A DNA stretch of 64,000 bases from Gammaproteobacteria bacterium (GTDB lineage: Bacteria; Pseudomonadota; Gammaproteobacteria; SZUA-152), in contig JAOUJW010000003.1 of NCBI GenBank assembly GCA_029882975.1, forward strand, positions 131,090-195,089, given 5' to 3'. Below the pieces are notes generated by a model. It searched no databases, had not been told where the DNA came from, and saw nothing but the letters and a program-made list of their open reading frames with translations. Shown in pieces: positions 9,002 to 54,705 of the stretch. The stretch's first letter is position 1; each line of letters starts with the position of its first letter. Made by a program: the position numbers and the translations under genes.

Positions 9002-10402
9002 GTGTTGCGGAGCTTGTTAAGCATGGGCTGTCTTGGTCCCTACGGGATTTATGGCGCCATTTTTATGGTGCTTACGAGTGCATCGGTGCAGGCACAAACT
9101 GCAGGGGAGGGGGCGGGAAGCTCGGTTATCGTTCCCGTTGATGTCGGCCCGGATAAAGACAAAGAGCCGGCGGAACATCCGGACAACTACAAGTCCCCGG
9201 TAAACCGAATTTTAGGGGTGGACCGCCGTCGGGATCAGTATGGTAAGGACTTTGGCTATTTTGTTTATCCTATCGCCGGAGATATTCCCGGCTTAGGGCA
9301 GGCGGCAGGCTTAGGGGCCACCTTGATGAATATGGGCGGGTCGGATATGGATTTTACCGGGTTTAAGGTCGATGGAGACTTCAGTGCTTCAGGTGCGACC
9401 TTATTGGACATCAATCTGATTCCGCAGCGATTGATCTTTGATTTTGGCTACTACGATTATGATGTGGCTCCGGTGGACTATGCTCGTGGTCTGGATTCTG
9501 ATAAGGATGATTATTTGTTGCCGAAAGTAAAGGGTTATTACTGGTTGGGGCAAATGACACTTACCTTCATGCAACGAAAAGTCGAGGCCTTTTATCGGCT
9601 GGGCTTGGGTAAAAGCCAGCTGCTGGAAATTCGCGAAAAAGACGGCAGCCTGTATCCGATTGGAGATACCTCCGAGAAAAATGCACGTGGAGATACTTTA
9701 GGCGTCAGTTTTGACAACACCGATGACCGCCTGGACCCGCGCACGGGTGTTCGGGCGGAAATCGCCCGCAAGGGATTTAATAACGAGGATCCTTTAGTCA
9801 GTGATTTCTATATTATGGATTACAATCTCACTGCTTATGTGCCCATGCGTCGCTGGGATACCCTGGCGTTTAATTTATTTCGATCCGATGCCCATGTCAC
9901 TCGTCAAGCGTCGACGGACGAAGCGTACCTAAAGTCGCAATTCGGATTCAACTGTGCCCCGGCAGATCAAGCTTGTCTCCAGGTTGAGCAGGAGTTTGTC
10001 GACCGGCGCATTCAGTTCAATCAATATGGGGTTGCCAGCAGTCTTGGTGGAACTCAAAGACTGCGTTCCTTTGCCAACGGCCGCTATACGGCGGGGCATT
10101 CTTTGTTTTATGGTTTGGAATACCGTTGGAATTTAACCGATGAGCGGGTACCGTTTGACATATTCATTGCCCGTGGGGTACGCACCGGTTTTCAGCTGGC
10201 ATTTTTTGCTGAGCAGGGCAGTGTGGCGGAAAATACCTCGGATTTATGGCGACAGCGCAGAACCAGCTATGGCGTTGGATTTCGCCTGGTGTTATCCGGC
10301 ATCATTATTCGGGCCGATTATGCCACCGGTGATGAGGGGGATGAGTTTGTGTTGTTTATAAACTATCCATGGAGTTTGTTTTCTGTGGACAGTTCCGGCT
10401 GA
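9002..10402 (+). CDS. Omp85-superfamily (BamA/TamA-like) outer-membrane barrel protein without POTRA domains
   Basis: A 466-residue protein with a signal peptide (to about SASVQAQ) and a short Asp/Lys-rich linker, followed directly by amphipathic beta strands. The segment FDNTDDRLDPRTGVRAEI is the usual opening of the surface-antigen (D15) domain. The later LGGTQRLRSFANGRYTAG matches the Omp85 [LR]G[YF] loop that enters the barrel lumen, with S in place of the central G. There is no room for POTRA repeats. The C-terminus (NYPWSLFSVDSSG) lacks the common terminal Phe. Start is GTG with AAGGAG 6-7 bases upstream. The function is unknown; a role in outer-membrane protein or lipid insertion is an inference. 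Confidence 0.75.
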   Translation: MLRSLLSMGCLGPYGIYGAIFMVLTSASVQAQTAGEGAGSSVIVPVDVGPDKDKEPAEHPDNYKSPVNRILGVDRRRDQYGKDFGYFVYPIAGDIPGLGQAAGLGATLMNMGGSDMDFTGFKVDGDFSASGATLLDINLIPQRLIFDFGYYDYDVAPVDYARGLDSDKDDYLLPKVKGYYWLGQMTLTFMQRKVEAFYRLGLGKSQLLEIREKDGSLYPIGDTSEKNARGDTLGVSFDNTDDRLDPRTGVRAEIARKGFNNEDPLVSDFYIMDYNLTAYVPMRRWDTLAFNLFRSDAHVTRQASTDEAYLKSQFGFNCAPADQACLQVEQEFVDRRIQFNQYGVASSLGGTQRLRSFANGRYTAGHSLFYGLEYRWNLTDERVPFDIFIARGVRTGFQLAFFAEQGSVAENTSDLWRQRRTSYGVGFRLVLSGIIIRADYATGDEGDEFVLFINYPWSLFSVDSSG

Positions 10403-34467: not shown

Positions 34468-35919
34468 ATGAAAGCGGTTAAGTTTTTTCACTTCTCTGTG
34501 GTGTTGTTCCTGCTGGCATTAGTGTGTGATAACAGCTTTGCAGTAGAGATTGAGTGGTCCGGTTTACGTGACCCCAGTTTACAGGAATCCTTGTTTGACT
34601 CTTATCAGGGGCGGCACTTCGCTGCCATTACCCGACTGCAATCCCATCAGAAACTGGGGCGCATCAAGAAAAATCAAGACCGAGCCGGACTGGTGTTGGG
34701 TGGTTTGTATTTGTCTTATGGTTTTCATCAAGAGGCGGCCAGTCTCTTTGAGGCTTTTTTGGAAAAAGATCAACCCAGACCGGTGAGCGATCGTGCCTGG
34801 TTTTATCTGGCGAAAACCCAGTATCAAAGGGGGCGCTATCCTGAGGCCTTGGATGCGCTTGCCAGAATCAAGGGGCAGTTAGACTCTGAGCTTCGGGCCG
34901 AACGTGTGGTGTTGGAGGCTCTCATTCTTATGCGGCTGGAACGCTTCAGTGAAGCTTCACGATTGTTAGCGCAGGAGTCCAAGGGTGGGCAGTGGTGGGT
35001 TTATGGAAAATACAATATGGCAATGGCGTTGGCCAAAACCGGTAAAAAGGTGGAAAGTGCGGAAATTCTGGATGAGTTGGGCAAGCTGCGTGTTAAGGAT
35101 GACGAAGCTCAACACTTGAAGGATAGAGCCAATTTGGTTCTGGGTTATGAATACTTGGGCAGTGGCGAGCCGGAAAAAGCTAAAGCGTTTCTCAAACGAA
35201 TTTATTTGGATGGGGTGCATGCCAACAGAGGTCTGCTGGGTTTGGGAAGAGCCTATTCCACCGGTAACGAACACGAGAAATCTCTTATCCCTTGGTTGCA
35301 GTTGATCGAAAGAGATCCCAGCGATCCCCATGTGCAGGAAGCGTTAATGGCGGTTCCCTATGCTTTTGGTCAATTGGAAGCGTATAAACAGTCTTTGCAA
35401 TACTACGAAAAAGCGATGCTGATTTTTCAGGAAGAGATTACAAAAATAAACTCGGCAGCCAATGCTATCGCCGGGGGTAAATTGATCGAAGGCATATTGC
35501 GAACGGAAACCGGTGAAGCGGATACCGGTGCCTGGACGATGAAAAAGGTTCTGGATTCACCTGAAGGGCGCTATTTGTGGCCTGTGATTGCCAGCTATGA
35601 GTTTTCCGAAACTTTGTTTAACTATAAGCAGTTGAGATTCTCACTGGGGAAGCTGGAAAGCTGGTCTGCCACATTACCCACCTACCAAACGCTGAATCAA
35701 CAAAATTACGGTGCCTACCAAACCCGAATTAATCAGCTACAGGCGCAGGTGTTATTAGCGTCTGAAAAGCTCAATCATCATTTGCAACGCCTGGCCTACA
35801 AGGAATTGGAGCAGCGCAAAAAGCGCCTGGTGGGATACTTTAATCAAGCTCGGTTTTCTGTGGCGCAAATCTACGATTATTCCGCCAAACGCTGGGGGGT
35901 AAAGCATGAGAAGGAATGA
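34468..35919 (+). CDS. Exported TPR protein
   Basis: A 483-residue protein with a signal peptide (cleaved near NSFAVE). The body is a TPR-type alpha solenoid: DRAWFYLAKTQYQRGRYPEALDAL, VLGYEYLGSGEPEKAKAFL, LLGLGRAYSTGNEHEKSL. The last ~120 residues are a long helical region with coiled-coil character. Periplasmic scaffold is the likely role. It overlaps the next gene by 14 bp. Confidence 0.8.
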   Translation: MKAVKFFHFSVVLFLLALVCDNSFAVEIEWSGLRDPSLQESLFDSYQGRHFAAITRLQSHQKLGRIKKNQDRAGLVLGGLYLSYGFHQEAASLFEAFLEKDQPRPVSDRAWFYLAKTQYQRGRYPEALDALARIKGQLDSELRAERVVLEALILMRLERFSEASRLLAQESKGGQWWVYGKYNMAMALAKTGKKVESAEILDELGKLRVKDDEAQHLKDRANLVLGYEYLGSGEPEKAKAFLKRIYLDGVHANRGLLGLGRAYSTGNEHEKSLIPWLQLIERDPSDPHVQEALMAVPYAFGQLEAYKQSLQYYEKAMLIFQEEITKINSAANAIAGGKLIEGILRTETGEADTGAWTMKKVLDSPEGRYLWPVIASYEFSETLFNYKQLRFSLGKLESWSATLPTYQTLNQQNYGAYQTRINQLQAQVLLASEKLNHHLQRLAYKELEQRKKRLVGYFNQARFSVAQIYDYSAKRWGVKHEKE

Positions 35920-38752
35920 GGTTCAATTCCTGTTGCGGCCCTTAGCAGCGAGTTTAATCATCGCTTTGGCTGCCTGTAACACCACCGGTAAGAATACACT
36001 GGGATCACTGGGCGAGAAGCTTCACGTGAAGATTGAGAAAGATGCCGTGGTGGTGAGTGCGCGCAGTGATGTGATGGATAACTACTGGCAATTCATGAAT
36101 AACAATCCGGAGGATTCGCTGCGTGTAGAGGCGTTGACGCGACTGGCGGATCTGGAGCTGGAAAAAAGCGAAGCGCGTTACCAGTCCCAATTGGAGCAGT
36201 TGACCGAAAAGCAAACCACGCAGGATCAACCGGATGAGACGATCAATTTGCAAGGCGTGAGTTACGAGAAAGCAATTGTGTTACTGGAAAATGCCTTTAC
36301 CGTATCTAAGCGTAGCGGCAATCCCAAACCGAAAATATTGTATCGATTGGCCAGAGCGTATGAACAAGCGGGTAATTCGCGCAAGTCGCTGCATTCCCTG
36401 GATCGATTGCTGGAGGAATTTCCCAGTATAACCAACCGTGATGAGATTCATTTTCGCCGCGGTGAGTTATTGTTTGCCATGCAGTCCTATGATGAGGCCG
36501 AAGATGCTTATACACAGGCTATGGTGATTAGCCCCGGTTCGCCATTCTATGAGAAAGCACTGTCAAAGCGGGGTTGGTCGGCCTACAAAAAAGGCGAGTA
36601 TGAACAGGCGCTGTATTCTTTTGTGAGCCTTATTGATCGCAAGCTTAGAAGCGGCAGCGGTGAAGTGGGAGAGGACGATTCGCATTTGAGTCGGGGTGAT
36701 AAAGAATTGCTGGATGATGTGTTTAGGGCAACCTTGCTGAGCTTTAACGAATTAGGCGGTGGTAATGTCATCTCCGAGTATTTTACCCGTAATGGTCGTC
36801 GTCCCTATGAATATAGGCTGTACAAGGCGTTAGGAGAGCACTACCTTGGGATGGGGCGGGTACGGGATTCGGCTAAGGCCTATCGAGAGTTTGTCAGCGC
36901 TTTTCCCGACCATCCACAAGCTCCCTACTTTGATTTGTATGCAATTGATGCCTATGCCAATGGGGGGTTCGCTAAACTGGCCCTGACAGAAAAAGCCAGT
37001 TTTGCCGGTCGTTACCGGGTAAATGGGGCGTTTTGGAAGAGTTTGACCGAAGAGCAAAAAAACAAGTTAGGTCCCAAGTTGGCGCAGAATATCGAGGAGC
37101 TGGCACAGCACTATCATGCGGCCGCGCAAAAAACTGCATCCTTCGAAGATTCGGCCAAGGCTTTGGTGTGGTATGAGCAGTATTTAAAGAGCTTTCCGGA
37201 GAATCCCAAGACGCCGAAGCTACATTTGTTGATGGCGGATTTGTTGTTGGATGCTAAGCGTTATGGGGATGCGGCACGGGAATATGAGGCCATTGCTTAC
37301 CAATATAAGACGTCGGATGCAGATGCTGCGTATGCCGCAATAGTGGCTTATTCCAAGCAAGCGGAAATATCCGGCTTGGACAAAGAAAAAGCCAGTCGTC
37401 AGTCTGTGGCCAGCGCGCTGCGATTTGCCAAGTCTTTTCCCAAAGACAAGCGTTCGGCTACAGTGATCATGAAGGCAGCGGAAGAATTATACGCGCTGAA
37501 AAAGTTTAATCAGGCGGCAACCGCTGCCCGGGTGGTGTTGGAGCTTAGTGGCAAGGTGCCCGATAAAATCCGCCGTTCAGCCTGGTTGATTGTTGCTCAG
37601 GCAGATTTGCAGGGTGGGCGATTCTCTGAGGCGGAATCGGCATATAAAATCGCACTCAAGCTGACCAAAAACAAGAAAGATCGTTTGGATATGCAGGAAC
37701 GAATTGCCGCAGCAATCTACAAACGCGGTGAGCAGCTACGCAGTTCCGGCGATGTGGAAGGTGCTTTGGCCCAATTCAGTCGTATTGAACAGGAAGCTCC
37801 CGATTCCAGCGCCAATCAGGCAGCGCTGTTTGACGCGGCAATGGGCTTCTTACAAAAAGAGCAGTGGGCTGAAGCGATTAAGCGTTTAGAGAAATTTCGG
37901 GGTAAATATCCCGGCAGCAAACATCAGGATCAAATTACTCGTGGGTTGGCCCGCGCCTATGAGCAGAACAAGCAACCGCTGTTAGCCGCAGGCGAATTCG
38001 AGAAACTGATGATTGGCGAATCGGACCGCGAAAAACAACGGCAAATGATTTTGCACGTGAGTGAGTTGTATGAGGGGACCTCTGAATCCGGCAAAGCCAT
38101 GAATTTGTATCTGGAATACGCTAAAAATTATCCTCGTCCTGTAGATATGGCTATTGAAGTAAAGCAGAAAATCGCTGCACATTACAAAGATCGGGGTAAT
38201 ACGGACAAGTATCATTATTGGTTGAGAGAGATTATTCAAACGGATGAATTTGCCAATAGAGAGCGTTCCGAGCGCACAAAATTTCTCGCGGCCAAGGCCA
38301 GTTTTATTTTAGCTAAGCCTACATTGCGCTCATTCCAGAACATTAATCTAGTGGCTCCGCTTAAAGAAAATCTAAAGTTGAAAAAACAGCGTATGCAAGC
38401 TGCGGTGGATGCCTATACCCAGGCTGCCAATTATGGGATTGCTGAAGTAACAACGGCGTCCGTTTACTTATTGGGTGAAATTTACTCTAATTTTGGAAAA
38501 GAATTAATGAAATCTGAACGGCCATCCGGGCTTTCCCGGGAGGAGTTGGAACAGTATGATATCCTCCTGGAGGAACAGGCTTATCCGTTTGAAGAAAAGT
38601 CTATAGATATTCATGAGTCCAATGCTCATAGGGCCTCCGAAGGTCTTTACGATGAGTGGGTTAAGAAAAGTTTCATTGCTTTACGTACCCTGCGCCCGGC
38701 GCGGTACGGAAAAATGGAAAGGAGTGAGTTGATTGCTGACACCATTAATTAG
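35906..38752 (+). CDS. Large TPR lipoprotein
   Basis: A 948-residue lipoprotein (lipobox ALAAC, Cys24) made almost entirely of TPR-like repeats, for example ILYRLARAYEQAGNSRKSLHSL, LFAMQSYDEAEDAYTQAM, RGWSAYKKGEYEQALYSF, LARAYEQNKQPLLAAGEF. Asp after the Cys is absent (Asn at +2), so sorting to the outer membrane is expected by the E. coli rule. Comparable in kind to the large TPR proteins (AglT) of Myxococcus Agl/Glt-type systems. Confidence 0.85.
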   Translation: MRRNEVQFLLRPLAASLIIALAACNTTGKNTLGSLGEKLHVKIEKDAVVVSARSDVMDNYWQFMNNNPEDSLRVEALTRLADLELEKSEARYQSQLEQLTEKQTTQDQPDETINLQGVSYEKAIVLLENAFTVSKRSGNPKPKILYRLARAYEQAGNSRKSLHSLDRLLEEFPSITNRDEIHFRRGELLFAMQSYDEAEDAYTQAMVISPGSPFYEKALSKRGWSAYKKGEYEQALYSFVSLIDRKLRSGSGEVGEDDSHLSRGDKELLDDVFRATLLSFNELGGGNVISEYFTRNGRRPYEYRLYKALGEHYLGMGRVRDSAKAYREFVSAFPDHPQAPYFDLYAIDAYANGGFAKLALTEKASFAGRYRVNGAFWKSLTEEQKNKLGPKLAQNIEELAQHYHAAAQKTASFEDSAKALVWYEQYLKSFPENPKTPKLHLLMADLLLDAKRYGDAAREYEAIAYQYKTSDADAAYAAIVAYSKQAEISGLDKEKASRQSVASALRFAKSFPKDKRSATVIMKAAEELYALKKFNQAATAARVVLELSGKVPDKIRRSAWLIVAQADLQGGRFSEAESAYKIALKLTKNKKDRLDMQERIAAAIYKRGEQLRSSGDVEGALAQFSRIEQEAPDSSANQAALFDAAMGFLQKEQWAEAIKRLEKFRGKYPGSKHQDQITRGLARAYEQNKQPLLAAGEFEKLMIGESDREKQRQMILHVSELYEGTSESGKAMNLYLEYAKNYPRPVDMAIEVKQKIAAHYKDRGNTDKYHYWLREIIQTDEFANRERSERTKFLAAKASFILAKPTLRSFQNINLVAPLKENLKLKKQRMQAAVDAYTQAANYGIAEVTTASVYLLGEIYSNFGKELMKSERPSGLSREELEQYDILLEEQAYPFEEKSIDIHESNAHRASEGLYDEWVKKSFIALRTLRPARYGKMERSELIADTIN

Positions 38753-47066: not shown

Positions 47067-49331
47067 ATGTTAGATACACTTCGTCGAATCGTGCAAGACG
47101 TGAACAATGCCAGAGATTTACAACAGGCTCTGGATATCATTGTTAATCGTGTAAAAAAAGCGATGGGTGTGGATTTATGCTCGGTTTATCTTACGGATCA
47201 TGTGCACAAGCACTATGTGCTTATGGCAACCAATGGACTGAACCCTGACGCTGTCGGCGACGTGCGTCTGGAATTTGGGGAGGGCTTGACAGGACTGGTT
47301 GCGGCAAAAGAAGAGGTGCTGAATATTGCCGATGCAGCGGGTCATCCCAATTTTAAATACGTCCCCCAATCCGGAGAGGAGGTTTTCCATGCCTACCTGG
47401 GTGTTCCCATCATTCATCACAGAAAATTGCTGGGCGTCCTGGTGTTGCAGCGCCATCAGCGACAGAAATTTGATGAAGACATTGTCACTTTTTTAATCAC
47501 AATTGCGGCACAACTTGCCGGAGCGATAGCCCATGCCGAAGCCAGTGGCGGCATTGATGGACTACAGAAAGGCTCCCTGCGTAGTGTAGAGCCCTACCAG
47601 GGGCATCCTGGGGCGCAGGGGGTGGGCGTGGGGGATGCCTTCGTCTTGTATTCTTCGGCCGAGTTGAGTGCTGTTCCTGATCGTAAGATTGACAACGTGG
47701 AGGATGAAATCCAAGTATTTCAAACCGCGTTGCAGGGGGTGCGCGAAGACATAGGGGAGCTCCTCAGCAGTTTGGTCGGCATTCTACCGGCTGAAGACCG
47801 GGCTTTGTTTGACGCTTATTTGCTCATGCTGGACAGCGATACCTTGATCAATGGAGTGGAACAGAGGATCCGGGAGGGGAATTGGGCCTCGGGCGCCTTG
47901 AGGGACACTATCAAAGAGCACATCCAGGTGTTCGATGAGATGGAAGACCCCTACCTGCGAGAGCGTAGCACCGACATACGCGATCTGGGACGACGCATCC
48001 TCACACGCCTGCAAAGTGGCGGCAGTCGCCGTCCCTTAAATTTGCCGGACCGGACTGTGTTAGTGGGTGAGGAAATAACCGCTTCCATGTTGGCGGAAAT
48101 TCCCGTGGACCACATCACCGGTGTCGTTTCCGTGGCGGGTTCGCGCACTTCCCATGTCGCCATACTGGCCCGTGCCATGGGGATTCCGGCCGTCATGGGG
48201 GTGGATCTACCGGTCAGTCGCATCGATGGTAAACGTGTGGTGGTAGATGGTTACAGTGGGCAGGTGTATGTAGAGCCTACCCGAGCCATTTGTGATGAAT
48301 TTCAGCGCCTGGCCCAGGAAGAAAAAGAGCTGTCGGCAGATCTGGCAGCGTTGCAGGAATTGCCTTCGGTCACACCGGACGGTGTGCACGTGCCCTTGCA
48401 TGTCAACAGCGGTCTACTGGCGGATATTGTGCCCACCGAATTTGTGGGAGCTGAGGGAATCGGTTTATATCGCACAGAATTTCCATTCATGGTGAGAGAT
48501 CGTTTTCCCGGTGAGGAGGAACAATATCTCATTTATCGCGAACTGCTTAAGTCCTTCGAGATGGGACCGGTAACCATACGCACTCTGGATGTGGGGGGGG
48601 ATAAAGCTTTACCCTATTTCCCAATTACCGAAGATAATCCCTTTCTGGGTTGGCGGGGGATTCGGATTTCGTTGGATCATCCGGAAATTTTCCTGGTGCA
48701 ACTGCGTGCCATGCTACGGGCTAATGAATCACTGGACAATATGCAACTGTTGTTGCCGATGGTGAACAGCGTCGGTGAAGTTGACGATGCGTTGGCGCTA
48801 TTGAAAAGGGCTTTTGAGGAGCTCAGAGAGACAAATGCCGGTATTAACATGCCCAAAGTAGGTGTCATGATAGAGGTGCCATCGGCGGTATATCAAGTCG
48901 AGTCTATTGCTCGGCGTGTGGACTTCCTTTCTGTTGGTACCAACGACTTGACCCAATATTTACTGGCGGTTGACCGCAACAACTCCCGGGTTGCGGAGTT
49001 ATACGATTCCTTGCACCCAGCCGTGCTTCAGGCTTTGGTGCAAATCGTCAAAGGGTCGCATAGAGAGCACAAACCCGTATCCATATGCGGAGAGATGGCC
49101 GGTGACCCGGCCGCTGCGATTTTGCTCGTGGGTATGGGATATGACAGCTTAAGTATGAGTGTGGCCAACTTACCCAGAATCAAATGGGTGATCCGTAATT
49201 TTACCACCAGTCGGGCAAGGCGCCTGTTGAGTGAAGTGTTAGAGTTCGAGCATGCCTATCAGGTTCGCAATCACTTGAACGGGATCCTGGAGTCATCGGG
49301 ATTGGGAGGCTTGGTGAGACCGGGCCGTTGA
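47067..49331 (+). CDS. ptsP: PtsP, enzyme I of the nitrogen phosphotransferase system
   Basis: A 754-residue EI-Ntr. N-terminal GAF domain (residues ~20-160), enzyme I N-domain, the phosphohistidine domain with SVAGSRTSHVAILARAMG (His is the phosphorylated residue), and the PEP-binding TIM barrel with GIGLYRTEF, TIRTLDVGGDKALPYF, SVGTNDLTQYLLAVDRN and CGEMAGDP. It hands phosphate from PEP to NPr and PtsN for control of nitrogen, K+ and envelope functions. Downstream of rppH as in Legionella and Pseudomonas. Confidence 0.95.
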   Translation: MLDTLRRIVQDVNNARDLQQALDIIVNRVKKAMGVDLCSVYLTDHVHKHYVLMATNGLNPDAVGDVRLEFGEGLTGLVAAKEEVLNIADAAGHPNFKYVPQSGEEVFHAYLGVPIIHHRKLLGVLVLQRHQRQKFDEDIVTFLITIAAQLAGAIAHAEASGGIDGLQKGSLRSVEPYQGHPGAQGVGVGDAFVLYSSAELSAVPDRKIDNVEDEIQVFQTALQGVREDIGELLSSLVGILPAEDRALFDAYLLMLDSDTLINGVEQRIREGNWASGALRDTIKEHIQVFDEMEDPYLRERSTDIRDLGRRILTRLQSGGSRRPLNLPDRTVLVGEEITASMLAEIPVDHITGVVSVAGSRTSHVAILARAMGIPAVMGVDLPVSRIDGKRVVVDGYSGQVYVEPTRAICDEFQRLAQEEKELSADLAALQELPSVTPDGVHVPLHVNSGLLADIVPTEFVGAEGIGLYRTEFPFMVRDRFPGEEEQYLIYRELLKSFEMGPVTIRTLDVGGDKALPYFPITEDNPFLGWRGIRISLDHPEIFLVQLRAMLRANESLDNMQLLLPMVNSVGEVDDALALLKRAFEELRETNAGINMPKVGVMIEVPSAVYQVESIARRVDFLSVGTNDLTQYLLAVDRNNSRVAELYDSLHPAVLQALVQIVKGSHREHKPVSICGEMAGDPAAAILLVGMGYDSLSMSVANLPRIKWVIRNFTTSRARRLLSEVLEFEHAYQVRNHLNGILESSGLGGLVRPGR

Positions 49332-49407: not shown

Positions 49408-52344
49408 TTAGAACGTGGTTCCCACGGAAACGTAGGCCATATCTTCTCCTAAATCCGGGTCCAAACCGTGCGCCACACCGATACGTAAGTCCAGCAGGAA
49501 CATGTAGCCTAATATAATTTCTGTATTCACTTCGAAACCGGTACCTTGTTTATAATCGGCCGCCTCGATGCTGTCGTTCCAGGCATCCCCGACATTGTAA
49601 AAAGCACGACCGTAAATATTGTGTATGCCGGTGGGAAAGATCAGTATGGAGTACATGCTCCCCCGTTCCATTGTGTAAATGGGAAATCTTACCTCCATTT
49701 CAAACAGGCTCATATGAGTTCCGGACAGCTCCGTAAGACCTTCTTTGTAACCTCGCAGGGCATAGCTGCGCCGATTAAACAGTTCGCGGCTGGAAGCAAA
49801 TACGCTGTTAGCAGGTGACGCCATGGTATAACCATCATTTACACCGCCTAAGGAAAAGAGCTTGGGGGCATCGGTGCTGCTGGCGCCGGCTAAGCGCAAG
49901 GCCATGGCGGTGCGGTGACCTAAATCGAAATAGGCGCGTATATCCGCGGTATAGACTTGGCCCGTATGGTCACTGTCAAAAGTATCATAGTCTTCAGCGA
50001 CCAAACGCCAACGCATACCTTCGCTGGGGCTGACGGCCCGGGGGTAGAATTTAGAAGAATTATACGTAATGGCAGCACCCGCCAGTTTTGATAAAGTTTC
50101 ACCTTGTGGAGGAACAAAGGGATCCCGCCAGACATCTTTTTCCTTATCCTGCAATACTCCGAGATGCAGGGACAATTGTTGGTTGCGTTTTAATATAGGG
50201 TAAATCAATTCCGCGCTTAAGGTTTCTGATATGCGTGTGCGTATTGCTTCATCGTTACTGTTGAGAAAATACTTGGGTGTACGCAGAACGGATAATTTCA
50301 ATGCTGGATTCCAGCGATCATAAATATAATCGAGATAGCCTTCGGAATATTTTTGTTTAAAATCGTAAGCATGGCTAAATTCGTAATAGTGGCGCTCCAA
50401 TGGGTCTGTTCCCCAGGTGGTAATACCTACACCCGCATTGTCGGGAGTATAAAACAATATGGGAAACCACGAAGTAGGGGTTAAGCGTGTCAGACCGTTG
50501 TAATCACTAACTGCGGCGGTGTCAGGATTGTAGACGCTATTCGGTTCGGTATTGGCCAAGGCACTTTTTATGTGTTTTTTGGCAGGTTCTTGATAAGCGA
50601 CAGGCGTAATGGCCTTGCTATCATCAATTTTGTAAATATCGTAGCCTTTGCCGCTGACCCCCATATAGACAATGCCCCGGCCTTCACCGTGCTGTACGGC
50701 CGCAAAAGCGCCCCCCAGGACATTACTCAACTGCTCCGTTTTACCGCTCAGCAGATCCAGTTTTCTTACATTGTAAACACCATCATAATCGGCGCAAAAT
50801 ATAATTGATTTGCCGTCATGCGTGAATTGTGGCTGAGCTTCAATGTCTGCGGTTTGAGTTAATTTCACCCAACGTTTTTCTGCTAAGGAGAAGGCTTCAA
50901 GATTCCATTGACTGTCGGGTCGCCAAACGGAAGCGACGATGGTTTTGCCGTCAGGAGACCAATCGGGTTGGGATACCACGACTTTGTCTTTACCACTCCA
51001 TAGGGTGTCCAGATAATTGCCATTGGCATCGAGTAAATGGAGGGCTTTTTCACTGAGATGGTTATGTACTGCTACGATGCGGTCTCCCTGTGGGTTCCAT
51101 GTGGCGTAAATATAACGCTTTTCCGAAGTCAGACGGGTCTGGCGCCCCGTTTCAATGTCGATGTGATGCAGGTCGGAAAAATAACTGGCGTTATTGAACA
51201 AGTCCAGTCGGGCCATAATGATTCCGGCCGTCGGATGCACGTCGTAGCGGTCGGTTTCAACTTCGGCTACCACCTGGGGCGTGGTGGAGTTGTGTTTGAT
51301 TCGCATCAATTTTTGATGGCTTAAAAAATCATCTTGAACATAAAATATATCGCCGTTGGGCAGGCTGCGGGGTGCGCCCGTGTAGTAACCCGTTTGACTG
51401 AGTTGGGTGCCCGCGACCAAGCCTTGGGATTTAATGTGCTCCAGCTGGGGACGGAATTGTTTCTGCACGTAGGTTTCAAATTCAGGCCATAAGCGACCCA
51501 AAGACTTACCAAAGGTCTGTCCGGCATTTCGGTTAATAAAAAACGGTAATAGATTGTTGCTGTAGTTGTGAATCCATTCCCTGAGCTTTTCCTCGCCGTA
51601 GGTATCGCGAATAAAGTTCATAAAATAAACGCCATACAAATAGCGTGCTGTACCGGCGGGCCATGTCACCATGGGTTGGTTTACCTGAGTGATGGGTTTC
51701 ACCCCGGTTTCCACTTCCATGCGCATCAACGCCTTGAATGAGTTGCTTTGGCCGCGGCCAATTCCTTTCTCTGTGTCGGTTTCAGTATAGGTGGCCAAAC
51801 CCTCCAATACCCAGCTGGGTTGATAGGCATTAGGAAAGGCAGCGAGAAATGGACTAAACAGGCGACCGAAAATTTTACGGAATACTCCGGAAGCCCCGGT
51901 GGCTTTATCCATGTGCAAAATATGAGTGTATTCGTGGGTGATAAGCAATTCCAGCCAGTTGGAGTAATCGTCCAGTACACCCACATCGTCCGGAGGGCTC
52001 ACAATAATATTCATGGTGTTTCGAGGTAAAGGGGTCGCCCAACCGTTGGTAAAGTCCATTCGGTCTGTCAATATCAACTCAGTTGGGCTGCTTGGGGTCC
52101 AGTCTAAAAATTGGCTCAGGCGCTGGTGCGCCCTTTCTGCTATGACAGCGGTTTCTTTGGCCAGAGCCTCTTCACCATCATGGTAGTGGATGTAAAAGTG
52201 AGGTGTATGCATGGTTTTCCAGCTAATTGTGGGGTCTTGGGAAACCGCGGCGATGGCTGTGTTACAACAAAGCGCTAATATCAAAGAAAATAGTGAAAAG
52301 CGAAAAAAGTTGGTACGCACTGTTTGCATAGGCAGTATTTGCAT
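49408..52344 (-). CDS. Gluzincin protease, beta-propeller and Omp85-like barrel fusion
   Basis: A 978-residue exported protein. Signal peptide ~1-33. Residues ~40-330 are a peptidase MA-type domain with HEYTH (137-141) and third ligand E181 in VLEGLATY. Residues ~340-640 are six or so WD40/TolB-like blades (PDWSPDGKTIVASVWRP, PQFTHDGKSIIFCAD). The remainder is an Omp85-type barrel with SYALRGYKEG and a terminal Phe (VSVGTTF), the BAM recognition end. It is probably an outer-membrane barrel with a periplasmic protease head, by the Omp85 topology. Comparable proteins exist in databases as BamA/TamA-type fusions, but the role is unknown. Confidence 0.8.
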   Translation of the reverse strand: MQILPMQTVRTNFFRFSLFSLILALCCNTAIAAVSQDPTISWKTMHTPHFYIHYHDGEEALAKETAVIAERAHQRLSQFLDWTPSSPTELILTDRMDFTNGWATPLPRNTMNIIVSPPDDVGVLDDYSNWLELLITHEYTHILHMDKATGASGVFRKIFGRLFSPFLAAFPNAYQPSWVLEGLATYTETDTEKGIGRGQSNSFKALMRMEVETGVKPITQVNQPMVTWPAGTARYLYGVYFMNFIRDTYGEEKLREWIHNYSNNLLPFFINRNAGQTFGKSLGRLWPEFETYVQKQFRPQLEHIKSQGLVAGTQLSQTGYYTGAPRSLPNGDIFYVQDDFLSHQKLMRIKHNSTTPQVVAEVETDRYDVHPTAGIIMARLDLFNNASYFSDLHHIDIETGRQTRLTSEKRYIYATWNPQGDRIVAVHNHLSEKALHLLDANGNYLDTLWSGKDKVVVSQPDWSPDGKTIVASVWRPDSQWNLEAFSLAEKRWVKLTQTADIEAQPQFTHDGKSIIFCADYDGVYNVRKLDLLSGKTEQLSNVLGGAFAAVQHGEGRGIVYMGVSGKGYDIYKIDDSKAITPVAYQEPAKKHIKSALANTEPNSVYNPDTAAVSDYNGLTRLTPTSWFPILFYTPDNAGVGITTWGTDPLERHYYEFSHAYDFKQKYSEGYLDYIYDRWNPALKLSVLRTPKYFLNSNDEAIRTRISETLSAELIYPILKRNQQLSLHLGVLQDKEKDVWRDPFVPPQGETLSKLAGAAITYNSSKFYPRAVSPSEGMRWRLVAEDYDTFDSDHTGQVYTADIRAYFDLGHRTAMALRLAGASSTDAPKLFSLGGVNDGYTMASPANSVFASSRELFNRRSYALRGYKEGLTELSGTHMSLFEMEVRFPIYTMERGSMYSILIFPTGIHNIYGRAFYNVGDAWNDSIEAADYKQGTGFEVNTEIILGYMFLLDLRIGVAHGLDPDLGEDMAYVSVGTTF

Positions 52345-52561
52345 AGATAGAAAGTCCCGCTGTTATTTATGGCCTTGAACCATTGTAAACCATTTTTCTA
52401 AAAGTTGAGTTGCTAATCGAGAGTCCCAATTGTATCCATAACATAAAAATTTAGCCTCAGGCTCAAGTGTGAGTTTTGTGACCCGATACCTACTGTGAAA
52501 TTTCATTACGTCCGCCGGGCGTGTCCTTAGTGAAGCAGTGCAGGGAGCGGTTGTTCATAAA

Positions 52562-53050
52562 ATGATCAAATTGAATGTTTTTGTAGGTTTATTCCTTGTT
52601 TTCGGGCTAATTGCTCAGGTGGCACCACTGCAGGCCAAGCCCATGTCTCCGGTGCAAGTGAGCATATGGGCGGAGCAACCCGTAACACCGGGCGAACCGA
52701 TTCAATTGGTCGTTAGTGCCCAAATGGAAGTTGATGCCGTTTCCGTCAATATGGATGTGCAGGTTCCGCCTGGAACTGTGACACACAGCGGTCCGCTGAC
52801 ATGGCAAGGCGGGCTGTCGAAAGGTCAGGAAAAACAGTTGCGCCTGTCCATGGCCTTACCGGTTAACGGGCAGGTGTTTGTCCGGGTTTCTGCTGTTGAT
52901 TCCGTGACCCTACAACAGATGACTGCAGTGGCTGTATATCAGGCATCGACACCTATCCGAAAACTAGCTGATGATAACAGTCTTATGCAGCGAGGCCACA
53001 GGGTAACTGCAGCGGATGGTGATGTCATTCGAGAATTTTTCCTGGATTGA
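52562..53050 (+). CDS. Small exported beta-rich protein, partner of the metalloprotease lipoprotein
   Basis: A 162-residue protein with a signal peptide (FVGLFLVFGLIAQVAPLQA) and an Ig-like beta domain (VQVSIWAEQPVTPGEPIQLVVSA ... QKLRLSMALPVNGQVFVRV). No catalytic motif. The ATG at 52562 follows a GGGAGCGG site; the frame runs to 52538. Its stop is 5 bases before the next gene's ATG. A chaperone, inhibitor or accessory of that protease is an inference. Confidence 0.65.
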   Translation: MIKLNVFVGLFLVFGLIAQVAPLQAKPMSPVQVSIWAEQPVTPGEPIQLVVSAQMEVDAVSVNMDVQVPPGTVTHSGPLTWQGGLSKGQEKQLRLSMALPVNGQVFVRVSAVDSVTLQQMTAVAVYQASTPIRKLADDNSLMQRGHRVTAADGDVIREFFLD

Positions 53051-53055
53051 CGCTT

Positions 53056-54705
53056 ATGACGATCATGCGATTGCTGTTTGTTTTTGGTTTTCTACTACTC
53101 AGTGCTTGTGGTGAAGATGAGAAAACTTATACTCCGCTGTCGGTGGAAGGGCAGGTGCGCTATGAGGATAAGGAATACAGTTCCAACGGCTTTACCGGAG
53201 AACGTTTTCTAAAACCGGTGCGTTTCGCTCGGGTGGAACTGGTTTCCGGAAACGGCCGCGTCCTGGATCGAGCGGTAGCCGATGAGAACGGTTTTTACTC
53301 CTTGCGAGGCGGAGCGGAATATATGTATGTTCGGGTCTTGGCTTTTGCTGAAGCGCAGACCGGTTCCACAATAGAGGTTCGAAATCACTCGGGCGAACTA
53401 TATGCCATGCGTCAATCGGTAGACAGTGCGGGGGGAGATCCGGTCAATCTGGATATGGATATTACTTCGGATCATCTTATCTCCGGGGCATTTAATATTC
53501 TGGATGTGTATCTCAATGCTACGGGATATATTTCCGGTCTTTCTACTCAACCCATGCCCCCTTTACGGGCTTTTTGGCAACCCCAATCCAACCGATACGG
53601 AACTTATTTTTGTTCTTCAAGTGTTCAAAGCAGTAACTGTCCTCAGGGCGCCGGTGTGTATTTGTTGGGGGGCTACCAAAGCGGTGGTGATACGGATGAG
53701 TACGACGATGATGTTTTATACCATGAGTTTGGACATTATTTAGAGTCTGCCTTAGGCATACTGCATTCACCTGGCGGTCGGCACTATATTTCTGAAAACG
53801 ACAGCGATATCCGCCTGGCCTGGAGTGAGGGATTCGGAGGTTTTATGCCGGGAGCTGTAAAATCCTGGTTGCGTCAAAATGATTCCGATCGCCTATCGAT
53901 TCCGCCAACGCTGGCGACATCTTATTTTATCGATACCTCCGGTTCCTATGCGGCGATCTCACTGGATATGGCAGCCCCGTCAACCATGTTTTGTTCCATG
54001 GGAAAAGACTGTTTTGTGTATTCCACCAGTGAAGTCTCGGTTGCCAAAATTCTCAACCAATTGGATGCTCAGTTCGGTTCCCGGTCCTGGTGGGATACGG
54101 TGGTGACCTATATGGCCGCAAATAACCGGGTGGCCACCCTGGAGACGTTCTGGGATGGCTGGATGCAACACCGGTTTCCCGGTAGTGATGAAATGGCCTT
54201 GGTGCAGGGAATTTTTCAGGATCGTCAAGTGTTCTATATAGATGACAGCTTTGAAAATGACAGCACGTTACCAGCAGCAAACACGGTGGTGGTGTGCGAA
54301 CCGGAGCCTTGTACTACAGCGGTGCGGACTTTGTATGGAGTCAACGGTGAGGTAGATATGGATCTTTTTCGTTTCGATGCGGTAGCCGGATCCAGTTACA
54401 CCGTTGAAACATTAGGGTTGAGCAACGGTGCCGATACTTTTATCCGTATTTTGGATGCAAATGGCAACCTCGTACTTGGCGCTTCAGGGGAACCGATGCA
54501 GAACAATGACCGTCCCGGTACCGTGTATTGTTACCCCTTTGACAGTCCGTGCCGGGTCCACAATGATGCGACTATGCTCTCATCCGTGCTCACGTTTCAA
54601 CCGCTGCTGTCTGCGCCATATTGGGTGCAAATTAGTACGAATCCCAATCGCCCGGCAGCGGCCGGCCGTTACGGTTCTTACCAATTTAAAATTACCAGGA
54701 ACTGA
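53056..54705 (+). CDS. Secreted/outer-membrane metalloprotease lipoprotein
   Basis: A 549-residue lipoprotein (LLLSACGEDE). After a carboxypeptidase-regulatory-like beta domain (PVRFARVELVSGNGRVL), the catalytic region carries VLYHEFGHYLES (HEFGH 223-227) and third ligand E258 in LAWSEGFGGF, a gluzincin pattern. Asymmetric Cys pairs (CSSSVQSSNC, CSMGKDC) suggest disulfides. The C-terminal ~100 residues resemble a pre-peptidase C-terminal (PPC) domain (VDMDLFRFDAVAGSSYTVET). The TTG at 53047 overlaps the upstream stop; the ATG at 53056 is preferred. Confidence 0.75.
   Translation: MTIMRLLFVFGFLLLSACGEDEKTYTPLSVEGQVRYEDKEYSSNGFTGERFLKPVRFARVELVSGNGRVLDRAVADENGFYSLRGGAEYMYVRVLAFAEAQTGSTIEVRNHSGELYAMRQSVDSAGGDPVNLDMDITSDHLISGAFNILDVYLNATGYISGLSTQPMPPLRAFWQPQSNRYGTYFCSSSVQSSNCPQGAGVYLLGGYQSGGDTDEYDDDVLYHEFGHYLESALGILHSPGGRHYISENDSDIRLAWSEGFGGFMPGAVKSWLRQNDSDRLSIPPTLATSYFIDTSGSYAAISLDMAAPSTMFCSMGKDCFVYSTSEVSVAKILNQLDAQFGSRSWWDTVVTYMAANNRVATLETFWDGWMQHRFPGSDEMALVQGIFQDRQVFYIDDSFENDSTLPAANTVVVCEPEPCTTAVRTLYGVNGEVDMDLFRFDAVAGSSYTVETLGLSNGADTFIRILDANGNLVLGASGEPMQNNDRPGTVYCYPFDSPCRVHNDATMLSSVLTFQPLLSAPYWVQISTNPNRPAAAGRYGSYQFKITRN

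Follow-up and report, generated by a model that had tools for sequence, protein, structure and literature searches.

The stretch of DNA analyzed here (the window) comprises 64,000 nucleotides from the genome of a Gammaproteobacteria bacterium (assembly GCA_029882975.1, contig JAOUJW010000003.1, positions 131,090 to 195,089), and its central feature is a gene that joins a putative protease, a beta-propeller, and an outer-membrane barrel in a single protein. The open reading frame (ORF) of 978 amino acids lies at window positions 49408 to 52344 on the minus strand, as do all of its parts described below, and the ORF list together with a family alignment of 28 sequences identifies it as a complete three-domain protein. 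An earlier reading, made from the sequence alone (the sequence-only reading), had placed the ORF at exactly this position without stating its strand and had proposed a protease head, a propeller, and an Omp85 barrel in one chain; the ORF itself, matches to PD40 and TIGR02800, a TamA profile, and structural models all agree with that description. By sequence and model, the order of parts is a signal peptide, a gluzincin-like head whose conserved site is complete, a TolB-like propeller, and a POTRA-less 16-strand Omp85-type barrel. The predicted signal peptide, recognized by eye, covers residues 1 to 32 (AIA/A; positions 52249 to 52344). The AlphaFold2 model of the full-length chain, built from a 12-sequence alignment, has a mean predicted local distance difference test score (pLDDT) of 70.4 and a predicted template modeling score (pTM) of 0.69.

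The head occupies residues 40 to 312 (51409 to 52227) and is the most conserved of the three domains, with a mean identity to the query of 49% (27 rows), compared with 39% for the propeller (27 rows) and 38% for the barrel (25 rows). Its predicted zinc-binding and catalytic motif, HEYTH, falls at residues 137 to 141 (51922 to 51936), and the glutamate that would provide the third zinc ligand is residue 181 (51802 to 51804; WVLEGLA), within PSWVLEGLATYTE. Each of the 28 aligned family members, the window protein among them, has H137, E138, H141, and E181, so the motif is not a chance one; W178, G182, Y235, and G238 are likewise invariant in this alignment. We also gathered all heads detectable at an E value of ≤1e-5 (set for 100,000 sequences) in 218 loci. 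The 122 heads that are distinct over residues 61 to 160 of the matched stretch, some of which are fragments, all retain the H, E, H, and E of the zinc site, and Y235 (51640 to 51642), a candidate transition-state tyrosine, is present in 119 of the 120 that have a residue at that place. With its HExxH motif and downstream glutamate ligand, the head has the appearance of a gluzincin-like domain of clan MA. Peptidase_MA_2 matched 13 of the 28 family heads at an E value of ≤0.5 (best, 5.7e-10), and the same scan returned DUF2268 for 10, M61 for 5, M1 for 2, and Peptidase_M48 for 1. On whole proteins, Peptidase_MA_2 matched 6 of 28 at an E value of ≤0.01, and among the distant members described below it matched 5 of 20 at ≤0.1 (best, 2.2e-12). 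When PDB sequences were searched with the head profile, the sole result was a weak aminopeptidase match (3cia; E value of 0.078), and fold searches of the full-length model were filled by propellers, with no match informative on the head.

Residues 315 to 575 (50620 to 51402) form the TolB/PD40-like propeller. The window protein matches PD40 at 22.7 bits, above the cut-off of 20.9, and TIGR02800 with an E value of 1.2e-16; the 60.6 bits of the latter match fall well short of the TolB equivalog level (cut-off of 343.15). VIA-align superimposed 237 residues of the propeller on TolB (1c5k) at 2.4 Å, with a Z score of 25.0. The propeller is TolB-like and not TolB itself: TolB is a soluble periplasmic protein of the Tol-Pal system, whereas the propeller, which resembles it in both fold and sequence, sits inside a predicted outer-membrane protein. 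Two further ORFs with TolB-like propellers are present in the same genome (C16 and C26).

The C-terminal part of the chain, residues 616 to 978 (49411 to 50499), was assigned as an Omp85-type barrel from two models, hhalign, and Foldseek. In the full-length model, 16 strands lie between residues 622 and 977, and a barrel-only model (8 sequences; pLDDT of 62.1, pTM of 0.58) again gave 16 strands with the same insertion between strands 11 and 12. This inserted loop, residues 824 to 874 (49723 to 49875), contains two short helices just before an RGY tripeptide at residues 864 to 866 (49747 to 49755), and we take its location to be that of loop L6 in Omp85 proteins. The L6 motif of Omp85 proteins is (V/I)RG(F/Y), and a motif of this type is present here as RGY between strands 11 and 12. 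Among the 26 ungapped rows of the family alignment, G865 and Y866 are kept in every one, residue 864 is R in 19, H in 6, and Q in 1, and the terminal residue, F978, is F in 20, L in 5, and V in 1. No POTRA domain is seen in the full-length model, and none would fit, because the ~48 residues from the last propeller strand to the strand beginning at 622 are too few. The non-POTRA subfamilies of Omp85, as they are described in one survey, do not require this domain (PMC4104836).

Profile comparisons also link the barrel to Omp85 proteins. By hhalign, the family barrel profile (27 rows) aligned with a profile of six TamA sequences, from the window's genome and its relatives, at a probability of 95.9 (E value of 5.2e-9), with two TpsB sequences at 62.8 (7.1e-5), and with 18 BamA sequences at 54.1 (1.3e-4), these E values being for a single comparison and the TamA, TpsB, and BamA genes having been named from PF01103 matches, length, and inspection of the sequence by eye. 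Against single sequences, the probabilities were 69.1 for TamA, 15.6 for TpsB, 0.3 for LptD, and 0.5 for another outer-membrane protein. Judging by these scores, TamA is the nearest of the barrels tested. Foldseek returned 93 matches to the barrel model at an E value of ≤0.001, and the best 50 of these were all BAM/BamA, TamA, SAM, TOC-TIC, or CdiB entries (best E value, 1.3e-7); we take entry 5ayw, titled "membrane complex" alone, to be a BAM structure, and the matched chains in the SAM and TOC-TIC entries are presumably Sam50 and Toc75. PF01103, the Pfam Omp85 family, matched 6 of 26 family barrels at an E value of ≤0.5 (best, 9.3e-5), 1 of 28 whole proteins at ≤0.01, and 3 of the 20 distant members at ≤0.1 (best, 4.6e-13). 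The NCBIfam model Omp85_fam matched one of those 20 at 2.5e-20, the NCBIfam BamA model gave a weak match to the window protein (E value of 0.11), and a PDB sequence search with the barrel profile gave nothing at an E value of ≤1. By profile and predicted fold, the barrel is Omp85-like. The particular features on which the sequence-only reading had relied can all be found in the protein, namely, the HEYTH motif with an intact third ligand, the RGY signature, and the terminal phenylalanine; structure prediction, in both the full-length and barrel-only models, yielded the C-terminal barrel that it had expected, and a loss of HExxH in orthologues was looked for among the 122 distinct heads and not found.

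The fusion protein is more widespread than a first reading of one sequence could show. The window's family is represented by 24 genomes, counting that of the window, and 23 of them have matches that extend beyond the TolB-like propeller; three of these 23 hold fragments only, and the single genome without a match is 81% complete. Among other genomes of the same class, 2 of 16 have a family match (G028, with the head part only, and G032). In a phylum-wide sample, at least 19 of 398 genomes, again counting the window's own, have matches of more than 190 bits. The remaining matches listed in that whole-protein search were rejected, as they cover the propeller region alone, as TolB would; since the whole-protein profile mainly returned such matches, subsequent searches relied on the head or the barrel instead. 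The named relatives, at 11 loci, come from gammaproteobacterial or proteobacterial, Leptospiraceae, Ignavibacteria, and Bacteroidetes metagenome-assembled genomes (MAGs). At an E value of ≤1e-8, the head query matched 78 of 100 genomes in the phylum of the Leptospiraceae MAG and at least 90 of 148 in that of the Ignavibacteria MAG, the centre genome being counted in each case. On the Leptospiraceae side, 94 of the 101 matches listed fall in open frames 850 to 1,260 amino acids long, the length of a three-domain protein; in a few cases a single frame accounts for two of the matches. Two of the seven exceptions begin ~120 bases or less from a contig end.

From the matches scoring between 285 and 67 bits, a range that leaves out the weakest, we retrieved 20 distant genes in full. 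Their products are 926 to 1,163 residues long and all have HExxH in the head; TIGR02800 matched 15 and PD40 matched 13, and the barrel profile matched 15 at an E value of <1e-4 (in a tiny database), comprising 11 of 13 on the Leptospiraceae side and 4 of 7 on the Ignavibacteria side. The barrel profile gave 11 matches in a search of seven genomes, 10 of them in ORFs where the head is present as well. Across 351 pairs of sequences, the divergences of the three domains are correlated, with Spearman coefficients of 0.94 for head and propeller, 0.91 for head and barrel, and 0.94 for propeller and barrel. This parallel divergence is as expected of one unit inherited together, and common descent of the genomes would by itself give the same result. 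Some genomes of the window's family have two copies of the fusion gene (G007; G008, loci L113 and L114), and those of G007 (L112; G007:C82:1-19000) are ~5 kilobases (kb) apart on opposite strands.

In the window, 76 bases separate the stop codon of the fusion gene from the end of a convergent ptsP-type gene (47067 to 49331), and the fusion gene is divergent from a 170-amino-acid ORF on the plus strand (52538 to 53050). The latter has no Pfam match and precedes a plus-strand ORF of 552 amino acids (53047 to 54705), which matches PPC weakly and has a YHEFGH motif and, by eye, an LLSAC lipobox; it is possibly a second metallopeptidase of the locus. In this genome, G002, and G004, the fusion gene is divergent from the 170-amino-acid gene and the lipoprotein-like 552-amino-acid gene. 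Within the window's family, ptsP and rppH often adjoin the fusion gene, and a PtsP gene is present in 8 of 15 stretches (L111, L113, L115, L116, L120, L121, L123, and L130), at a distance of ~6 kb in L113. Outside these two settings, the neighbors vary. Ahead of the fusion gene in L113 (G008:C35), and oriented like it, are genes for an AcrB-type pump, an Lnb_N/DUF7840 protein, and an alpha/beta-hydrolase, an AcrB-type gene is directly upstream in L115 (G010:C6), and L122 and L130 have ORFs of lengths and order similar to those in L113 and L115. The 20 neighbor proteins scanned around fusion genes included AcrB-type pumps, the Lnb_N/DUF7840 protein, the alpha/beta hydrolase, an ABC1-kinase (UbiB-like), and UvrD; none of the 20 is a BAM subunit, and in the stretches examined no partner names a substrate. 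Scans for promoters and terminators were uninformative, with 5 promoter-like sites against 4.6 expected and 8 terminator-like sites against 3.7 expected, all 8 of them inside the coding region.

Elsewhere in the genome are separate BamA- and TamA-like genes, a co-occurrence to which the sequence-only reading had drawn attention, as well as an LptD gene (PF04453; E value of 4.8e-82). Because these genes are present, the fusion protein is not a replacement for BamA, TamA, or LptD. Another plus-strand ORF of the window (9002 to 10402; 466 amino acids) has a signal-like N terminus by eye and a weak PF01103 match (E value of 7.7e-5; 22.8 bits, below the cut-off of 24) and is perhaps an Omp85 protein of the noNterm type. 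Its product was ruled out as a close relative of the fusion barrel (hhalign probability of 5.3). A 419-amino-acid ORF on contig C4 resembles it, with weaker matches. Two adjoining TPR-repeat proteins of 483 and 948 amino acids are encoded at 34468 to 38752 on the plus strand.

Among known systems, the closest by description comes from the survey of Heinz and Lithgow 2014, which defines ten Omp85/TpsB subfamilies and includes, among the architectures without POTRA, a WD40-Omp85 kind in which a propeller closest to TolB precedes the Omp85 barrel, likened there to a fusion of BamA and BamB (PMC4104836). WD40-Omp85 and the fusion protein share an N-terminal propeller, an Omp85 barrel, and the lack of POTRA. 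They differ in that the account of WD40-Omp85 given in that survey speaks of the WD40 part only, mentions no protease head, and does not list the phyla of this cluster, whereas the fusion protein has an HExxH head (PMC4104836). Compared by these descriptions, the fusion protein is very likely a member of WD40-Omp85 or a close neighbor of it, with the HExxH head on that branch. Since the account mentions no such domain, the head seems to be a catalytic domain that has escaped notice in a kind of Omp85 protein already named but not yet studied. Open-license PubMed Central was searched, with subscription journals and preprints lying outside the search, and none of the titles, abstracts, and passages covered described WD40-Omp85 as bearing a protease head. 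The same survey lists a "Metallo" subfamily, in which an Omp85 barrel is said to bear a metalloprotease, and assigns its domain to PF00149 (PMC4104836). In Pfam, PF00149 is Metallophos, a calcineurin-like phosphoesterase, so the label "metalloprotease," repeated in a 2024 paper on PlpD (PMC11116518), is probably a misnomer. In contrast to "Metallo," the fusion protein has a gluzincin-like HExxH head and a propeller between head and barrel. The sections of the 2024 paper on these subfamilies still treat metalloprotease and WD40-like Omp85 proteins as separate and not well characterized (PMC11116518). PlpD itself, a patatin-Omp85 protein, likewise carries an enzyme head on an Omp85 barrel; it differs in having a patatin-like lipolytic head and one POTRA domain, with no propeller and no protease (PMC11116518).

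We consider it fairly probable, from sequence, models, and analogy, that the fusion protein is a periplasmic zinc peptidase anchored in the outer membrane, with the propeller as a docking platform and the barrel as the anchor. The barrel would sit in the outer membrane, with the propeller and the head held on its periplasmic side, a placement that we infer from Omp85 topology, with its even strand number, and from PlpD. The propeller may dock a partner or a substrate, as TolB docks Pal, and the head might then cleave an envelope protein near the membrane; outer-membrane or surface proteins are the most likely substrates. As PlpD suggests, the Omp85 barrel would act mainly as anchor and scaffold, with no insertase role required. 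That relatives of the same layout in several phyla keep the protease site makes a membrane-anchored protease facing the cell interior probable. In favor of this reading are the zinc sites kept in all 122 heads, the high conservation of the head, the TolB-like propeller, a barrel that resembles Omp85 proteins by profile and fold and, among single sequences, TamA but not LptD or an unrelated outer-membrane protein, the joint divergence of the three domains, the co-occurrence of barrel and head in 10 of 11 matches, and the periplasmic head of PlpD. Several observations weigh against this reading. The profile used to collect heads scores the zinc motif itself, and because the motif contributes to detection, strongly degenerate heads may have been missed. 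The window head is below the Peptidase_MA_2 cut-off (E value of 0.0023; 18.2 bits against 32.4), and the window protein has no PF01103 match, its barrel being outside the matching set. The barrel models are of modest confidence (pLDDT of 62 to 70), and parts of the L6 region score below 50 in the full-length model. BamA as a single sequence had no match to the barrel profile (hhalign probability of 0.1), and VIA-align, which ranked FhaC first for the barrel model (Z of 15.9) with TonB-dependent receptors, MOMP, and porins within ~1 to 2 Z, has no power to separate Omp85 from other large barrels. Five of the 20 distant relatives are without a clear match to the barrel profile, and one genome (G439) has five head ORFs, only two of them with a barrel match.

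An intact protease site and an Omp85-type barrel with RGY in L6 are also what one would expect of built-in quality control, in which the barrel seam engages nascent or stalled outer-membrane proteins and the head cleaves those that fail, so that the chain would be functionally BepA and BamA in one. BepA is a soluble periplasmic M48 zinc peptidase with TPRs that acts at the outer membrane, and its likeness to the fusion protein is functional only; unlike BepA, the fusion head is nearer to Peptidase_MA_2 than to Peptidase_M48. In the parts of the literature that bear on it, BepA acts on LptD at BAM (PMC8423444, PMC13067283), a precedent in favor of quality control. The fusion protein has no POTRA domain, however, R864 is replaced in 7 of the 26 ungapped rows, no BAM gene was found among the neighbors examined, and BamA-, TamA-, and LptD-like genes exist separately. 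The first two of these points are not decisive, because Sam50, according to the survey of Omp85 subfamilies, works without its POTRA (PMC4104836). We regard quality control as rather unlikely. Its fullest form, a one-chain assembly-or-destroy machine of several phyla, working beside BAM and TAM, whose barrel would receive clients at the seam while the propeller recognizes them and the protease removes failures, also seems unlikely, a little more so, and the proposal in the sequence-only reading that the head degrades or surveys barrel substrates is speculation.

The occurrence of FhaC and CdiB among the structural matches of the barrel could instead point to a type-V-like surface protease, in which the barrel would carry the head and the propeller out of the cell, a route once proposed for the patatin-Omp85 protein PlpD (PMC4104836). 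The PlpD head was, however, found to be exclusively periplasmic, according to the 2024 paper (PMC11116518), and ~540 residues of propeller and protease would need to pass a 16-strand pore, making export very doubtful. We find it just as improbable that the protein is a pseudo-protease or a TolB-like envelope linker with the head as a binding fold. The propeller does have the clearest known relative of the three domains, TolB, but the complete zinc site of all 122 heads and the nearly invariant tyrosine argue against an inactive head.

Under the favored reading of an outer-membrane-anchored periplasmic peptidase, WD40-Omp85, a kind of protein that has been named and not studied, appears from sequence to bear a zinc-protease head that is conserved and apparently active. 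Considering how common head matches are in the two other phyla, Omp85 proteins with a protease domain of their own may be present in many diderm bacteria. The fusion protein makes it possible to test whether such an Omp85 barrel serves as a scaffold for enzyme anchoring, in the manner of PlpD, or couples assembly to proteolysis.

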